From an uncultured Victivallales bacterium (GTDB lineage Bacteria; Verrucomicrobiota; Lentisphaeria; Victivallales; UBA1829), in assembly GCA_944390735.1 (NCBI GenBank), contig CALXRL010000007.1, positions 62,001 to 126,000 on the forward strand: a stretch of DNA of 64,000 bases, in the 5' to 3' direction. Below are positions 10,866 to 17,432 of the stretch, piece after piece. A program made the translations under genes and the position numbers. Each line of letters begins with the position of its first letter. Position 1 is the stretch's first letter. The notes below the pieces were generated by a model. It had not been told where the DNA came from and did no database searches. It was given only the letters and a program-made list of their open reading frames with translations.

Positions 10866-10966
10866 AACAAAACAGGGAAACACCGTCTTCACTCCCTTTT
10901 CCGGAGCGGCGGTTTTTCCCGTCCGGAAACCTGGGATCAGAGAACGAACAGAAAGGAATTGTGACA

Positions 10967-12289
10967 ATGAGCAGGGAAAAACAGCCGCTTTTGTGGAAGG
11001 ATGGAGTCAGCTATCTGGTGCCGTTCATTCTGATTACCTCCTGTTTTGCGCTGTGGGGATTTGCAAACGACATTACCAATCCGATGGTGAAGGCCTTTTC
11101 CAAGATTTTCCGTATGAGTGTGACGGACGGCGCCTTGGTGCAGGTCGCTTTTTACGGCGGATATTTTGCGATGGCGTTTCCCGCCGCCATGTTCATCCGG
11201 AAATACTCCTATAAAGCGGGGATTCTGATGGGGCTGGGGCTTTATGCGTTCGGTGCAATGCTCTTTTTTCCGGCGAAAATGACCGGCAACTACTATCCGT
11301 TTCTGATTGCGTATTTCATTCTGACCTGCGGTCTTTCCTTTCTGGAGACCAGTGCGAATCCCTACATTCTTTCGATGGGAACGAAGGAGACGGCGACACG
11401 GCGTCTGAATCTTGCGCAGTCGTTCAATCCGATGGGATCGCTGCTTGGCATGTATGTGGCCATGCACTTTATTCAGGCGCGGATGAGTCCGCTGGACACC
11501 GCCCAGCGAGCGGCGCTGACGGATGCGGAATTTGAAGCGGTCAAACAGTCCGATCTGTCGATTCTGATCGGGCCGTATCTGCTGATCGGAATTGTGATTC
11601 TGGCGCTCTTCCTTCTGATCCTTTTCAAGAAGATGCCGACGAATAACGATCAGTCGCACGAGATTAATTTTCTGCCGACTCTGAAACGGATTTTTTCCAT
11701 TCGGCGTTATCGGGAAGGGGTGCTGGCGCAGTTCTTCTATATCGGGGCGCAGATTATGTGCTGGACGTTCATCATTCAGTATGGAACCCGTCTTTTCACC
11801 GGCATGGGAATGGATGAAAAGAGTGCGGAGGTGCTGTCTCAGAAATACAACATTTATGCCATGATTATTTTCTGTCTGAGTCGATTTGTCTGCACGTTCC
11901 TTCTGCGGTATCTGAATCCGGGGAAGCTGCTGATGATTCTGGCGGTCGCCGGCGGCGTTTTCTCGGCGGGAACGATTCTGTTTCAGAACATGCTTGGAAT
12001 GTACTGTCTGGTGGCGATTTCCGCGTGCATGTCGCTGATGTTCCCGACCATTTACGGAATTGCGCTGGAAGGTCTTGGCGATGACGCCAAATTCGGTGCC
12101 GCCGGTCTCATCATGGCGATTCTTGGCGGATCGGTGCTGCCTCCTCTTCAGGCGGCGATCATTGATATGGGATCGATTGGCGGGTTCCCCGCAGTCAATC
12201 TCTCCTTTGTTCTGCCGCTGATCTGTTTTGTTGTGATTGTCATCTACGGGTTCCGTTCCGGAAAAGAGCGTGCGGCCAGATCGGCGTAA
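10967..12289 (+). CDS. fucP: FucP-type MFS sugar:proton symporter
   Basis: Inner-membrane transporter of 440 residues with twelve predicted membrane helices, matching the L-fucose:H+ symporter family in length and motifs: LITSCFALWGFANDITNPMV at the start, with N and D of the substrate path, and YFILTCGLSFLETSANPYIL in helix 4-5, followed by NLAQSFNPMGSLLG. I start at the ATG at 10967 with AAAGGAA 8 bases ahead; the GTG at 10961 is too near the ribosome site. It has its own promoter and is downstream of an AraC regulator. FucP relatives also carry glucose, galactose or other sugars, so fucose is likely but not proven; no fucose isomerase or kinase is in the window. Confidence 0.85.
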   Translation: MSREKQPLLWKDGVSYLVPFILITSCFALWGFANDITNPMVKAFSKIFRMSVTDGALVQVAFYGGYFAMAFPAAMFIRKYSYKAGILMGLGLYAFGAMLFFPAKMTGNYYPFLIAYFILTCGLSFLETSANPYILSMGTKETATRRLNLAQSFNPMGSLLGMYVAMHFIQARMSPLDTAQRAALTDAEFEAVKQSDLSILIGPYLLIGIVILALFLLILFKKMPTNNDQSHEINFLPTLKRIFSIRRYREGVLAQFFYIGAQIMCWTFIIQYGTRLFTGMGMDEKSAEVLSQKYNIYAMIIFCLSRFVCTFLLRYLNPGKLLMILAVAGGVFSAGTILFQNMLGMYCLVAISACMSLMFPTIYGIALEGLGDDAKFGAAGLIMAILGGSVLPPLQAAIIDMGSIGGFPAVNLSFVLPLICFVVIVIYGFRSGKERAARSA

Positions 12290-12539: not shown

Positions 12540-13958
12540 TCAGAACCGGAAATCACGTTTTCCGTCGTGCAATTCTTTGAGATGTTCCTGTGCAATGGCT
12601 CTGACTTTTTCATTGGTGATGCGCGGAATTTCCGCCGCAATGACCTTTTCCCCTTTTTTCTGAGTGTCGGGGGAAGCGTAGTCTTCGAGATACTCCTTGA
12701 GGGTCATAAGCGCATTCGGCTGACAACAGTTGGCAATCTGTCCCGTTTTGGCAAGCTTCATGAAGCGGTCCCCGGTTCTGCCTTCCCGGTAACAGGCGGT
12801 GCAGAAGCTCGGAATGTAGCCGAGGGTCAGAAGCCAGTTGACCACTTCATCGAGGGTTCGGGTGTCATTGACGTCGAATTGAGCGGAGTTTTCCTCTTCG
12901 GTCTCTTTTTTCACATAGCCGCCGACGCTTGTGCGGGATCCTCCGCTGATCTGCGAAACGCCGAGCCGCAGCACCTTTTCCCGCGCCGCCTGCGATTCTC
13001 TTGTGGAGATGATGAGTCCTGTGTAGGGAACCGCAATGCGGAGGATCGCAACGATTTTTTCAAAGATTTCATCGGAAATCGCATTGGAGAACATCGCCGG
13101 ATTGATGTCGTCCGCGGCCCGGATTCTCGGAACGCTGATGGTATGCGGTCCGACTCCTTTGGCCGCTTCCAGATGTTCCGCGTGCATCAGGAGTCCGACG
13201 AAGTCGTAGCGGTAGAGATTCAAGCCGAACAGGACGCCGATTCCCACATCGTCGATTCCGCCGTCCATGGCGCGGTCCATTGCCTCGGTGTGATAGGCGT
13301 AGTCGTGCTTCGGCCCGGTCGGATGCAGTTCTTCGTAGGCTTTTTTGTTGTAGGTTTCCTGGAAGAGGATGTAGGTTCCGATTCCCGCCTCCTTGAGTTT
13401 GCGGTAGTTTTCCACCGTGGTGGCGGCAATGTTCACATTTACGCGGCGGATGGCCCCGTTCTTGTGCTTGATGCTGTAAATGGTTTTGATGCTTTCCAGC
13501 ACATATTCGATCGGATTGTGAATGGGATCCTCGCCGGTTTCGAGCGCAAGACGCTTGTGCCCCATATCCTGAAGGGCGATCACTTCCTGACGAATCTCCT
13601 CCTGCGTCAGTTTTTTCCGGCGGATGTGCTTGTTTTTCGCATGATAAGGACAATAGGTGCACCCGTTGATGCAGTAGTTGGAGAGGTAGAGCGGAGCGAA
13701 CATGACGATCCGGTTCCCGTAGATTTTCTGCTTGATTTCGCGGGCGAGTTCGAACATCTTCTCATTTTTTTCGGGAATTGTGCATTCGAGAAGGACTGCC
13801 GCCTCCCGATGGGGAAGCCCTTTACAGGCACGCGCCTTTTCGAGGATGGCGTCGATGAGTTCGGCATTGTTCGCATTTTCCTTCGCGTAGGCGAGGGTGT
13901 CCCGGATCTCCTGATCGTCAATGAATTCCGTAGCCACGGATGATTTCGGTTGATACAT
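12540..13958 (-). CDS. hydG: [FeFe]-hydrogenase H-cluster maturase HydG (radical SAM tyrosine lyase)
   Basis: 472 residues, normal for HydG. The enzyme cleaves tyrosine to p-cresol and dehydroglycine and makes the CO and CN ligands of the H-cluster. The radical SAM cluster motif CINGCTYC gives C96, C100 and C103 (C-x3-C-x2-C); the second, C-terminal cluster motif is FCTACYREGRTG followed by NCC about 20 residues on, the C-x2-C-x22-C pattern that binds the dangler iron. I start at MYQPKSSVAT with GGGAG nine bases ahead; MTIRREKHN upstream lies inside the preceding gene. The TM1266-like regulator ends one base before this ATG, so the two are cotranscribed. HydE, HydF and a catalytic hydrogenase are not in the window. 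Confidence 0.95.
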   Translation of the reverse strand: MYQPKSSVATEFIDDQEIRDTLAYAKENANNAELIDAILEKARACKGLPHREAAVLLECTIPEKNEKMFELAREIKQKIYGNRIVMFAPLYLSNYCINGCTYCPYHAKNKHIRRKKLTQEEIRQEVIALQDMGHKRLALETGEDPIHNPIEYVLESIKTIYSIKHKNGAIRRVNVNIAATTVENYRKLKEAGIGTYILFQETYNKKAYEELHPTGPKHDYAYHTEAMDRAMDGGIDDVGIGVLFGLNLYRYDFVGLLMHAEHLEAAKGVGPHTISVPRIRAADDINPAMFSNAISDEIFEKIVAILRIAVPYTGLIISTRESQAAREKVLRLGVSQISGGSRTSVGGYVKKETEEENSAQFDVNDTRTLDEVVNWLLTLGYIPSFCTACYREGRTGDRFMKLAKTGQIANCCQPNALMTLKEYLEDYASPDTQKKGEKVIAAEIPRITNEKVRAIAQEHLKELHDGKRDFRF

Positions 13959-13959
13959 G

Positions 13960-14238
13960 TTATGCTTCTCCCTTCGTATTGTCAAGTTGAGTTGTCTGTT
14001 TGGAATAGACCGTTTTCACGCTGACGCCCTTCAGCATTCCCAGTTTTCCGGAAAGCGAACTGATGATGTCGTTCGGAGCATCCAGCACGACGCTGATGAT
14101 GGCGACTCCCTTCGGCCGATAGGGAATTCCCATCCGGCCGATGATGTATTCGGAATAATCATGCAGAATGCGGTTGATCTCTTCCGTGACGCCGCTGTTT
14201 TCCACAATGATTCCGGCCAGAGCGATTCTTGTTTCCAT
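13960..14238 (-). CDS. TM1266-type iron-only hydrogenase system regulator
   Basis: 92 residues made of a single ACT/NikR-C-like domain, the putative iron-only hydrogenase system regulator family named after TM1266. Beginning METRIALAGIIVENSGVTEE it keeps the beta-alpha-beta pattern, the HDYSEYIIGRMGIPY stretch and the end domain. Such proteins have no DNA-binding domain and are found with hydE/hydG/hydF genes, so a role in sensing a small ligand during maturation is likely but unproven. GGAGG precedes the ATG by about 9 bases. The stop is followed after one base by hydG. It is transcribed from an AT-rich region on its 5' side that also contains a GC hairpin. Confidence 0.85.
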   Translation of the reverse strand: METRIALAGIIVENSGVTEEINRILHDYSEYIIGRMGIPYRPKGVAIISVVLDAPNDIISSLSGKLGMLKGVSVKTVYSKQTTQLDNTKGEA

Positions 14239-14505
14239 GTTTTTTCCGTCCTCCGCTGATAAAAGAAAACCCCCGTGTACCGGGAAGGTGCGCGGGGATC
14301 ATGGACAAAAAAACTGCCGGATCTGCGTTCCGTCTTCCATCTCGGGAAAGGAGCTTCCCTGAATTTCAGAACGATCGCATTTGCAGGATCTTCGCTTCAG
14401 ATGCGCGCATCTTGTTTTCAGATCGTTGCTCTTAAGATACCATAAAGATTTTTTTTTGCAAGTGATTCTTGAAAAAAAGAAACGAATTTGGACATGGTTC
14501 TTTCT
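14239..14505. other. Leader and intergenic region between hydG unit and phosphatase gene
   Basis: No credible gene. Next to the TM1266-like gene, CCCCG (minus strand, near 14297) and CGGGG (near 14275) could form a hairpin followed by GTTTTCTTTT, which may attenuate transcription of the hydG unit. Around 14451-14480 an AT-rich inverted repeat (TTTTTTTTGCAAG, tgatt, CTTGAAAAAAA) lies just past the stop of the phosphatase gene and is the best candidate for its terminator. I did not find a clear -10/-35 pair. Confidence 0.35.
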
Positions 14506-15687
14506 TCAGAGGAATCGGACATGAACCTCCTTCATATACTGATCGCGGAGAACGTGTTCCAGGCGCTTGACGATGTTTCTGCGCAGTTCCAGATCCAGCG
14601 GCAGATTCGGATCCTGATATGCCTCGTTGATTTTCGTTCCGACGAGGAGTTCAATGACATCGTTTTTCCGGAGCAGACTGACCAGTCTTCCTGCGGGATC
14701 CAGCTTCTGAAGGTCTCCTTTTTCGAGATAGGCTGCCGCGCGGGTCAGCGTGAAGATTCCTTCGGTGACAAGATCAATTCCCGGGATTTTGGAGGCCGGC
14801 GGCAGATCGCCCGCATAGGAGTCGAAGTCCGGAGTTTTCCGGACGTTCAGTTCCCGTGCGACGATCTCCGCGGAGGTTCCTCCGCAGATGACTTTGGTTC
14901 CCTGGAATTCGCGGAAGAGGCGGCCGACTTCCGCATCGTGTTTCGGATCGACCGGCGGTCCTGTGAAAAGCAGAAGTTTCTGCGGCATGCGGAAATGAAT
15001 GCAGCCCACGGTGATGTCATCCATCGGGCGAAGATGCGGCTCCTGTGCGATGGCTTCTCTCAGAATGCGTTCGGAAAGTTCCTGGGCCCCTGCATTTGGG
15101 AATTTTGCAAGTTGTTCGACCGCATAGTGTTCGACGCCTTCGCTCTGCCAGCCGAGCGGGAGGCGTGTTGTGCCGAGTCCCGCCTGGGTGACTCCGTCGG
15201 AGAAGAAGAGCAGATGATCCTGCGGATGCGCCTGAAAATGAAAGGCGGTCATCATGCGGTCGCGGTATTTGGGCGAGACGAATGCGCAGCCCGTGACACG
15301 ATGAGGCTTGCCTCTGCGAAGCAGAAGGAACGGGGGATTTCCCATTTCCACCAGATTGATCCATCCTCCGGGGCGGATGTCGACAATCGTGAATGTGGAG
15401 TAGCTGATTTTGCGTTCGCGGCAGACGGGCAGGGCATCCATGATGATCTCCGCCGAGTGAACGATTTCCCGGTCCTCGGCGACAAAGCGCAGCGCCATGG
15501 TGGCGGTCATGGTTGCAAGGATGTTGGCCTTGACGCCGTGTCCGAGTCCGTCGGCGAGGACGGCGAGCATGCGGTCCTCGTCGGGAAGACGGCGGAAAAT
15601 GAGAACGTCGCCGCAGATGCGTTCGTCGAAATGGGTGCAGTGACTGCTGCCGGTATCGATGAAGAGTTTGTCGGCGGATTCGCTCAT
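14506..15687 (-). CDS. PP2C/SpoIIE family serine phosphatase linked to sensory hydrogenase
   Basis: 393 residues. The first 230 residues are a PPM/SpoIIE phosphatase: CGDVLIFRRL near the start, MLAVLADGLGHGVKANILAT with metal-binding D49 or so and GHG, FSDGVTQAG and the MDDITVGCI signature with its aspartates. The remaining 160 residues hold a second domain starting near LLLFTGPPVDPKHDAEVGRL, seen with this phosphatase beside [FeFe] hydrogenases; its function is unknown to me. The ATG overlaps the stop of the hydrogenase gene in an ATGA. The pair fits the known group C hydrogenase arrangement in which hydrogen sensing is passed to a Ser/Thr phosphatase. The dephosphorylated target is not evident. 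Confidence 0.88.
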   Translation of the reverse strand: MSESADKLFIDTGSSHCTHFDERICGDVLIFRRLPDEDRMLAVLADGLGHGVKANILATMTATMALRFVAEDREIVHSAEIIMDALPVCRERKISYSTFTIVDIRPGGWINLVEMGNPPFLLLRRGKPHRVTGCAFVSPKYRDRMMTAFHFQAHPQDHLLFFSDGVTQAGLGTTRLPLGWQSEGVEHYAVEQLAKFPNAGAQELSERILREAIAQEPHLRPMDDITVGCIHFRMPQKLLLFTGPPVDPKHDAEVGRLFREFQGTKVICGGTSAEIVARELNVRKTPDFDSYAGDLPPASKIPGIDLVTEGIFTLTRAAAYLEKGDLQKLDPAGRLVSLLRKNDVIELLVGTKINEAYQDPNLPLDLELRRNIVKRLEHVLRDQYMKEVHVRFL

Positions 15688-17432
15688 TTTCCGAAATTCT
15701 CCATGACTTCTTTTTCTTCGAGGATCCGGCTGTCGGCGTAGTCGTCTGCGATGGAGCGGAGGAGGAGTTCGGTATCGGCCATCTGTTCGCCGAGACGGCT
15801 GGCAATCTCCTGGACGGATGCGAGGTTCTTTTCGATGACCTGTCTGGCGCGTGCCGCGATCTGTTCCCTGCGCAGTTCCGTTCCGGTCACATCGAAGATC
15901 GCCGCCCCGACGACTTCGCCCGGATCAATGATGAAGATGTTCACGTTGAAGAGTTTGTTCCCGACTTTCATGGAATCGCGCCGGAGTTCCTTCCCCGTGT
16001 TCAGCACCGAGTCGAAGAGGGAGGCGAACGGCACGATCCGCCGCAGATCGGCTCCGGCGAGTCCGGGGGAGGCTTCAAAGGCGATTTCCGTATCCTCTCC
16101 GAAGAGTCTGGCGAAGTTCCGGTTGCATTCGATGATCTGGAGTTTCCGGTCTGTGATGACCACGCCGGAGGAGATGGAGCGCAGAAGGGCGTTGGCCTTT
16201 TTCTGCGCCTGTTTTTTCAGGTAGGAGACGCACATGGAGGGTTCGGCGCGTCCGGCGAGCATGGCTCTGGCGAAATTGCGGCAGGTGTCATAGCCGCAGC
16301 TGTCGCAGTTGAGTTCATCTTCCGGAGTGGTTTTGCCGATGCTGCGCAGGGCCTCCGTGAGTTCGCGGGAATCGGGAACGGGCTGTTCGGTTGCGTTGGA
16401 GCGGAAGGTTTCGGCGATCGGTCCTTCGGTGATCCGCTCCTTCGGATGGTCGGGAAACCGGGCGCCGCAGAGAACTCGCAGACGTTCCAGAAGCCCCGGC
16501 GAGCTGTGTTCCGTGCAGGGGCCGTGAACGCATCCGCCCTGACAGGCCAGAAGTTCCACAAAGACGCTCTCTTCCGTCTGCAGGGAGTCGAGTCCGGCAA
16601 GCGCGATCTTGAAATTCCGGCAGCCTGTGAGAGTGGCGTAATGGATGCGGCTGTTTCGGGTCTGGAAGCGGATGGTGTCGTTCATTCCGCCCTCGATGGG
16701 ATAGCGGGCGCCTTCCTCGGCGCGTTCGGGAACGAAGTCGGCCGCAGGATCCTCCGCAAACTGTTCCGGCGAGAGGTTCGCTTCCCGGAAGAGCTGTTTC
16801 AGCTCCGGATAGGTGAGGGCCGCGTCCAGAAGTTCCGGATGGCGGTCCGCCTCGTTTTTCTTGGCGATGCAGGGGCCGGCAAAGACGACGCGGATTTCGT
16901 TCCCGAACCGGTCGCGCAGAAGACGGCAGTGCGCCAGAAGCGGCGAGGAGACCTTTGTAATCTTTTCCGACAGATTCGGCAGATATTTGCAGATGTAGTC
17001 CACCGCCGCCGGACATGCAGAGGAGAGAAGCAGATCCGCTTTTCCTCCGTCGAGTTCGCCGCTGACGTTGGCGGAGACCAGCTGCGCTCCGAGCGCCGTT
17101 TCGCTGACTCCGGCAAATCCGAGTTGTTTCAGCGCCTGAATCATCCGGGAGGGAGTTGTGTTTTGGAACTCGCTGATCCACGAGGGAGCGAGCGAGAGAT
17201 AGACCGGACGCTCCTCCGAGAGCATCTGCCGGACAAGTTCGGTGTCGTTGCGGACCTGTTTCGCCTTGACCGGACAGACCTCAACGCATCGGCCGCAGGC
17301 AATGCACATTTCCGGAATGACGGCGGCATGACCGTCGCGGACCCGGATTGCCTTCACCGGACAGTGCCGGACGCATTTGTAGCAGTCCTGACACTCCGCC
17401 TCCAGGGTATAGACCGGATAAGAATGATTCAT
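15684..17432 (-). CDS. Sensory [FeFe] hydrogenase (group C type) with PAS domain
   Basis: 582 residues. Two [4Fe-4S] ferredoxin clusters lie at residues 13-55 (CQDCYKCVRHCP, CIACGRCVEVCP). The H-cluster domain has its three motifs: SSACP at 137-141, where C140 is retained but the usual proton-relay Cys before it is Ala139; GPCIAKKNE with C188; and LLACQGGC with C297 and C301. Cysteines 376, 379, 384 and 401 form another Fe-S motif (C-x2-C-x4-C). A PAS domain follows from about 410 (ALLRSISSGVVITDRKLQII) and a helical tail to the end. The Cys-to-Ala change is typical of sensory, low-activity hydrogenases (HydS). GGGGAGG precedes the ATG. The phosphatase gene follows in the same operon. No membrane segment is seen, so it is cytosolic. 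Confidence 0.92.
   Translation of the reverse strand: MNHSYPVYTLEAECQDCYKCVRHCPVKAIRVRDGHAAVIPEMCIACGRCVEVCPVKAKQVRNDTELVRQMLSEERPVYLSLAPSWISEFQNTTPSRMIQALKQLGFAGVSETALGAQLVSANVSGELDGGKADLLLSSACPAAVDYICKYLPNLSEKITKVSSPLLAHCRLLRDRFGNEIRVVFAGPCIAKKNEADRHPELLDAALTYPELKQLFREANLSPEQFAEDPAADFVPERAEEGARYPIEGGMNDTIRFQTRNSRIHYATLTGCRNFKIALAGLDSLQTEESVFVELLACQGGCVHGPCTEHSSPGLLERLRVLCGARFPDHPKERITEGPIAETFRSNATEQPVPDSRELTEALRSIGKTTPEDELNCDSCGYDTCRNFARAMLAGRAEPSMCVSYLKKQAQKKANALLRSISSGVVITDRKLQIIECNRNFARLFGEDTEIAFEASPGLAGADLRRIVPFASLFDSVLNTGKELRRDSMKVGNKLFNVNIFIIDPGEVVGAAIFDVTGTELRREQIAARARQVIEKNLASVQEIASRLGEQMADTELLLRSIADDYADSRILEEKEVMENFGK

Follow-up and report, generated by a model that had tools for sequence, protein, structure and literature searches.

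The 64,000-nucleotide stretch analysed here (the window), from a contig of an uncultured Victivallales bacterium, encodes HydS, a group C [FeFe] hydrogenase-like sensor, and directly downstream a SpoIIE-type PP2C phosphatase. Our comparison with related loci suggests that the two proteins probably form a signalling unit for H2 or redox state, in which the PAS domain and the C-terminal tail of HydS would act on the separately encoded phosphatase in trans. From the sequences compared we infer that the phosphatase is under the control of PAS and tail together, with the hydrogenase domain (H-domain) as an exchangeable input. A more far-reaching version, whose chances we consider evenly balanced, is that the core consists of two proteins, PAS/tail and PP2C, as a 'split RsbP', and that the hydrogen-splitting domain was grafted onto this unit, which a [2Fe-2S] thioredoxin-like protein usually accompanies. 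It builds on two kinds of natural variants: HydS proteins of Bacteroidota without one to all four H-cluster cysteines, whose ligand-less H-domain purifying selection still maintains, and a genome of the window's phylum that lacks hydrogenases but has a [2Fe-2S]-like gene, a PAS/tail protein and PP2C in series.

Results

HydS has the architecture of a sensory group C hydrogenase

The initial annotation had placed hydrogenase and phosphatase at 14506-17432, and the two open reading frames (ORFs) fill exactly this interval on the minus strand with an overlap of 4 nt (Table 1). From N- to C-terminus HydS consists of two [4Fe-4S] sites, the H-domain, a Cx2Cx4Cx16C motif, a PAS domain and a helical tail. 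The PAS domain and the extra Fe-S motif annotated behind the H-domain are thus both present, but their order had to be corrected: the Fe-S motif comes before the PAS domain, and the conserved helical tail follows. Relatives were taken as the best-scoring 80 loci of at least 561 confirmed stretches matching the PP2C query, and the HydS alignment comprises 78 rows, namely the HydS read beside PP2C in 76 of these loci and two host copies. Seven of the eight N-terminal [4Fe-4S] cysteines are kept in all 78 rows and Cys17 in 75, being replaced by serine in three rows of a Bacteroidota type that we call HydSb (L101, L115 and L117). In an alignment with the bifurcating HydA1 (8a6t), Ala139 in the SSACP motif falls on the first cysteine of TSCCP, which bears out the annotated replacement of the proton-relay cysteine; 71 of the 78 HydS have alanine here and five have residues other than alanine or cysteine. 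All four H-cluster cysteines of the window HydS (140, 188, 297 and 301) are intact. Gly186 corresponds to Met353 of CpI, as stated for TmHydS (PMC8163306), the CpI mapping being read off the motif. According to the same paper, Cx2Cx4Cx16C past the H-domain marks group C and group D lacks PAS; the window HydS has both elements as well as two N-terminal [4Fe-4S] motifs, and no cysteine at the position of CpI C299.

A tree of H-domains, the check that the initial annotation had proposed, agrees with the assignment to group C made there. It was a quick IQ-TREE run on 80 hand-picked rows with Shimodaira-Hasegawa-like approximate likelihood ratio test (SH-aLRT) support only; none of the rows is a biochemically characterised HydS, and the host's group A and B1 rows were anchored by TIGR02512 and TIGR04105. 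Group A (12 rows), B1 (13), HydS (30) and HydSb (21) were recovered with supports of 96 to 100, and four histidine-kinase-fused proteins (HydSk) grouped together with support 73. The window HydS lies inside the 30-row phosphatase-linked HydS group (SH-aLRT 96), apart from the catalytic groups A and B1, so the grouping with catalytic hydrogenases that the annotation had named as speaking against it was not found. The position of HydSb differs between trees: the H-domain tree joins it to HydSk (99), whereas in the full-length HydS tree, built without HydSk, its neighbours are three other HydS from Bacteroidota (92). Given the grouping with HydSk, phosphatase linkage alone may not mark a single clade. 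Judged by its sequence and this linkage, the window pair is of the putative HydDB [FeFe] C3 kind.

HydS occurs paired with the phosphatase and has a conserved tail

Among the 80 loci, HydS lies directly upstream of 73 of the 75 gene-called PP2C genes, and the two exceptions (L123 and L133) are each preceded, at the start of a contig, by a truncated ORF with the HydS tail. The pairing is therefore near-obligate in these loci. The 4-nt overlap is the commonest spacing between the two genes (17 of 73 relatives), and no HydS-PP2C fusion occurs among the gene-called loci. The 63 loci with a phylum in their title represent 13 phyla. In the phylum of the window we read 20 neighbourhoods, each spanning at most 20 kb and two of them from the host itself; 19 contain HydS, and the one that does not is that of genome G181, described below.

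A profile of the tail (HydS residues 525-566, 42 aa, built from 73 rows) was searched against 1193 neighbourhood ORFs. At E≤1e-3 it matched 98 of them, consisting of 96 HydS (training rows included) and two truncated ORFs just before PP2C. It thereby recovered 96 of 101 labelled HydS and missed L054 and L055 (weak matches), the fragment L114, and the contig-cut, HydSk-kind L117 and L131. Outside the training set, all 16 HydSb matched and none of the four HydSk; the single B1 and the single A enzyme tested gave no match either. By this distribution the tail tracks the phosphatase partner rather than the hydrogenase. The C-terminus of HydSk we take, from its motifs, to be a histidine kinase.

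Natural variants have lost the H-cluster ligands or the whole hydrogenase

At 1e-60 the HydSb query has matches, HydSk counted among them, in 92 of the 198 genomes from one order of Bacteroidota. We surveyed the H-cluster ligands in the best-scoring 30 HydSb loci of a longer match list, a choice that biases the sample: all four cysteines are present in 22, only Cys297 is missing in five, three ligands are missing in one and all four in two. The eight loci with losses are L157 (the same gene as L131), L167, L168, L170, L173, L176, L184 and L185; in L170 one N-terminal motif is not intact either. In the 78-row HydS set, ligand losses are confined to three Bacteroidota HydSb rows. Between two species without any of the four ligands, the proportion of nonsynonymous differences in the H-domain (pN) is 0.117 and that of synonymous differences (pS) 0.676, which indicates that even the ligand-less domain is still under purifying selection. 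The four HydSb loci checked for them have retained the C-terminal Fe-S motif as well as the motifs of PP2C. In the H-domain tree, the rows without all or three ligands form one clade (99) and six rows without Cys297 another, weakly supported one (88), with L127 standing apart; given this separate placement, loss probably occurred at least two times.

Genome G181, from the phylum of the window and 99% complete, has no PF02906 match genome-wide. At L046:8626-10595 it encodes in series a [2Fe-2S]-like protein (PF01257 6e-4, below cut-off), a 167-aa protein made up of PAS and tail, and PP2C. The PAS protein aligns with PAS and tail of the window HydS (1e-11) as well as with L055 (4e-21), and matches the tail profile at 7e-10. 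It is a single case: among 273 genomes of its order, only G181 has a hydrogenase-free PAS-PP2C locus.

The phosphatase carries a conserved C-terminal domain

The annotation of the downstream gene as a SpoIIE-type phosphatase coupled to the hydrogenase was confirmed by its PF07228 match, the 4 nt shared by the ORFs and the conserved aspartates expected of a SpoIIE/RsbU-type PP2C: D27, D46, D164, D223 and D224 are invariant in all 62 aligned PP2C, including that of the window. The AlphaFold2 model of PP2C has a predicted local distance difference test score (pLDDT) of 89.5, and Foldseek matched the PP2C domain best to 3pu9 (3e-14), with SpoIIE 5mqh at 1.3e-12.

Downstream of the catalytic domain follows an alpha/beta domain with a pLDDT of 88.3 when modelled alone. 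No Pfam family was found for it among 52 aligned members, which gave stray weak matches (best E 0.0086) with no family in more than four members. PP2C occurs at E≤1e-15 in 78 of 288 sampled genomes of the window's phylum, and the C-terminal domain occurs in the same 78, positioned C-terminally in PP2C; exceptions are short pieces (open frames of 41-42 aa) in G132 and G281. We read the domain as a signature of HydS-linked phosphatases. Structural similarity searches gave weak matches (Foldseek best E 6.8e-3, VIA best Z 10.0) that do not point to a ligand. Kinship with formylmethanofuran dehydrogenase subunit B, the 75-kDa subunit of complex I and methylglyoxal synthase was considered; the likeness is weak and we do not claim it.

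The two host pairs sit in different gene neighbourhoods

The host assembly (4.29 Mb in 100 contigs, 92% complete; its closest named loci are from Victivallales metagenome-assembled genomes) contains six H-domain genes and a maturation set of HydE, HydF and HydG, the last inside the window. HydS1 is the window gene (contig C7). Contig C80 carries a second HydS-PP2C pair (L037:9815-17572) in the order adhE, [2Fe-2S], HydS2, PP2C2, [2Fe-2S] and a hydrogenase of group B1 (TIGR04105, 522.7 bits). The remaining three genes, on C12, C44 and C19, are of the HydABC type, all three with TIGR02512 above cut-off.

Since many loci end at contig ends, the following neighbourhood counts are lower bounds. Within 6 kb, [2Fe-2S] genes of a thioredoxin-like type were present in 56 of the 80 loci and those of another type in 46, B1 hydrogenases in 48, HydABC genes in 17, Rex in 19 and AdhE in 14. 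AdhE accompanies 13 of the 48 B1 loci versus none of the 13 HydABC-only loci; the fourteenth AdhE locus, L124, has neither hydrogenase. In a HydS tree of 92 rows, 8 changes suffice for the HydABC label versus 15.4 in shuffles (0/500 as low) and 12 for the B1 label versus 18.3 (2/500), although near-copies favour the clustering of any label. HydS1 sits with the HydABC-context rows L040, L042 and L062, at joining forks of 80 to 85, and HydS2 lies inside a B1-context clade with support 100. The window pair therefore appears to be part of a lineage associated with bifurcating HydABC, the C80 pair of the adhE/group B1 lineage.

Neither a second hydrogenase nor a [2Fe-2S] gene adjoins the pair at the window locus. 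In four other Victivallales loci and in G043 of the same family, Rex and a [2Fe-2S] gene precede the pair; neither does so in G025 of the same genus. The TM1266-like gene and hydG next to the window pair were correctly named in the initial annotation (TIGR03959 and TIGR03955), but a special link to the pair is not supported: tblastn found neither gene in 20 kb around the pair in G025 and G043 nor in 10-17 kb of the four Victivallales loci. Within 6 kb, a TM1266-like gene occurs in 0/80 loci and a HydG-like gene in 6/80, a label assigned by BLAST with the window HydG that may include HydE, as some loci have two such genes close together. Both neighbours thus look incidental rather than conserved partners.

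A search for the phosphatase target in the neighbourhood yielded no candidate. Unlabelled neighbours within 7 kb were clustered across the 80 loci, no family occurred in more than seven, and cluster representatives judged by eye included no likely target; a GTPase cluster from six loci is HydF-like in look. Rex-type sites (TTGT-N10-ACAA and a weaker form) were absent from 11 upstream stretches of the host and relatives, and promoter-like sites were at chance level (2 found, 1.5 expected). Partner switching through STAS and anti-sigma proteins at the pair loci was likewise rejected, as the parts are encoded elsewhere in the genome and the RsbW-like kinase stands beside another SpoIIE phosphatase; a partner encoded at a distance would be compatible with this. 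The strongest RsbW-like kinase match, on C52 (L152:6311-8649), adjoins a HAMP-SpoIIE phosphatase, and STAS proteins were found on C44 (two, L151:9656-10640) and, more weakly, on C52. Together they probably constitute a separate partner-switching system.

Discussion

The window pair is a further member of a known phosphatase-linked class that is genetically supported and whose mechanism is open. HydDB lists [FeFe] C3, which shares with our pair a HydS with a linked serine/threonine phosphatase gene, as 'phosphatase-linked (putative)' and its role as undetermined (PMC5037454). In Thermoanaerobacterium saccharolyticum, the hfsABCD operon combines the PAS-hydrogenase HfsB, the serine phosphatase HfsC and the hydrogenase HfsD, the latter classed as group B (PMC8924675). 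Deletion of hfsA or hfsB (HydS) led to high ethanol yield and 2-3x adhE transcript, whereas deletion of hfsC or hfsD had no such effect (PMC5707799). By description the C80 operon has the same parts and adds adhE; the window pair, in contrast, stands alone. An eight-gene cluster of Ruminococcus albus also unites HydS, phosphatase, AdhE and a ferredoxin hydrogenase, called group A1 there versus B1 on C80; it was 111-fold down in co-culture, and direct H2 sensing was proposed (PMC6776011). TmHydS of Thermotoga maritima shares with the window HydS the alanine at the proton-relay site, the glycine at the Met353 site and PAS; at the Met497 position it has Ser267 and the window protein Leu295. In RsbP and RsbU, a PAS-helix or helix linker has been proposed to control a SpoIIE-type PPM phosphatase in cis (PMC12143880), whereas the PAS and helix of the window pair belong to another protein than the phosphatase, which lacks a sensor at its N-terminus. 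Unlike RsbU-RsbV-RsbW partner switching, the pair has neither a STAS protein nor an RsbW-like kinase at its locus.

In the proposed mechanism, the state of the H-cluster would be set by H2, or by a redox balance reflecting H2, and would be relayed via PAS and the helical tail to PP2C in trans, modelled on the cis role proposed for the PAS-helix linker of RsbP. PP2C would dephosphorylate a partner protein and its output may tune fermentative electron sinks; HydS probably restrains the phosphatase. H2 as the signal, the tail as transmitter and the direction of control are what we infer in this analysis. Several observations weigh against this mechanism. The relay cysteine is retained in two of the 78 HydS (L118 and L125). 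L054 and L055, divergent HydS with PP2C, are weak for the tail, with E of 0.0015 and 0.018 in one search and 0.0079 and 0.094 in another. No STAS or RsbW-like (HATPase_c_2) match was found on C7 or C80. The C-terminal cluster of the group D TamHydS is not reduced by H2 (PMC13104023), which speaks against a simple electron relay via that site. In T. thermosaccharolyticum, overexpression of hfsD alone in a full hfs deletion background gave the ethanol phenotype (PMC11837493), and disruption of hfsB/C is reported for ethanol-evolved strains of T. saccharolyticum (PMC13277313), so the phosphatase is not needed for this phenotype. Finally, the accessible open-access literature searched contained no report of H2-dependent PP2C activity.

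The unit could instead read the general redox state, through the potential of ferredoxin or of the [2Fe-2S] partner, with the H-cluster as only one way of setting it. The frequent [2Fe-2S] thioredoxin-like gene, of which a weak match is retained even in G181, the ligand losses in 8 of 30 HydSb loci and the tail, PP2C motifs and C-terminal Fe-S motif kept in the HydSb examined would fit such an input. As the main HydS lineage, including the window protein, retains its H-cluster ligands and the host genome has the maturation genes, we regard this as rather unlikely, although it is the strongest competitor. It is less plausible still that the PP2C C-terminal domain is the main sensor or a target-docking module and HydS merely a scaffold: the domain is conserved, without a Pfam family and found in the same genomes as PP2C, but it is accompanied by HydS or a PAS/tail partner in the loci read, and its weak fold matches reveal no ligand.

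Two further alternatives concern the genes themselves. A single functional operon of HydS, PP2C, hydG and the TM1266-like gene is suggested by the shared strand and the gap of 267 nt between PP2C and the TM1266-like gene, yet we consider it very unlikely given the absence of both neighbours near the pair in G025, G043 and the four Victivallales loci. A terminator-like stem in the gap points the same way and weighs little, since the search gave 13 of these sites where 7.5 +/- 2.9 were expected. HydS as a plain catalytic hydrogenase with a fortuitous phosphatase neighbour is the least credible account and barely tenable: H2 turnover is indeed known from TmHydS and TamHydS (PMC10055695, PMC8163306), but the tree position, the pairing across 13 phyla by locus titles, PAS plus tail and Ala139 all argue against it.

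A trans-acting PAS/tail sensor would bear on the signal output of sensory [FeFe] hydrogenases, which is an open question in the cited literature. Should PAS and tail indeed control a separately encoded PP2C in trans, this step can be tested with three proteins and the natural variants, and those without an H-cluster or the whole hydrogenase are nature's own control experiments for the input role. New here are the PP2C C-terminal domain without a Pfam family, the tail that tracks the phosphatase, the loss of H-cluster ligands and the hydrogenase-free PAS/tail-PP2C locus; in the accessible open-access literature searched we found no paper on ligand-less HydS or a hydrogenase-free PAS-PP2C unit. 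In many fermenters, including, by their titles, rumen and gut metagenome-assembled genomes, gene order connects the unit with AdhE, Rex and the main hydrogenases, and its T. saccharolyticum counterpart affects ethanol yield (PMC5707799). Taken alone the window pair is of modest interest; the comparative evidence on PAS/tail and a decaying hydrogenase input makes the question directly testable.

Feature coordinates and minor observations

Table 1. Position of the HydS-PP2C pair, its domains and motifs, and nearby features in the window
Feature	Position	Strand	Basis
HydS, group C [FeFe] hydrogenase-like sensor, 582 aa	15684..17432	-	domain order, motifs, H-domain tree
Two ferredoxin-type [4Fe-4S] sites, residues 14-57	17262..17393	-	Pfam Fer4_10 4.6e-9
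H-domain, residues 76-305	16518..17207	-	PF02906 (Fe_hyd_lg_C) 2.5e-44
H-cluster motif 1 SSACP, Ala139 replacing proton-relay Cys	17010..17024	-	alignment to 8a6t
H-cluster motif 2 GPCIAKK, Gly186	16857..16877	-	Gly in 75/78 HydS
H-cluster motif 3, Cys297 and Cys301	16530..16556	-	HydS alignment
C-terminal Cx2Cx4Cx16C iron-sulfur motif, residues 376-401	16230..16307	-	PF04060 (FeS) 3.2e-9; exact motif in 78/78 HydS
PAS domain, residues ~415-515	15888..16190	-	PAS_8 1.7e-5
Conserved tail, residues 525-566, proposed phosphatase-acting element	15735..15860	-	tail profile search
HydS/PP2C stop/start overlap, 4 nt	15684..15687	-	ORF coordinates
SpoIIE-type PP2C phosphatase, 393 aa	14506..15687	-	PF07228 2.1e-16
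PP2C catalytic domain	14992..15582	-	Pfam match and Asp conservation
PP2C C-terminal alpha/beta domain, residues 231-393 (~160 aa)	14506..14997	-	conservation, structure prediction
Terminator-like stem in PP2C-TM1266 gap	14270..14286		
TM1266-like gene	13960..14238	-	TIGR03959
HydG gene	12540..13985	-	TIGR03955
FucP-type L-fucose permease	10961..12289		TIGR00885, 650 bits

The fucose permease gene adjoins hydG. Four Bacteroidota HydSk loci (L162-L165) have aspartate at the position of the relay cysteine (SSDCP or STDCP) and are followed by two response-regulator-like genes. Recoding was considered for the PP2C of L068 and L078 and rejected: the stop in L078 precedes the true start, and L068 has one TAA near the end and one before the start. 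The PP2C frame with this single internal TAA near its end (L068:7974-9179) comes from a rumen Alphaproteobacteria metagenome-assembled genome.

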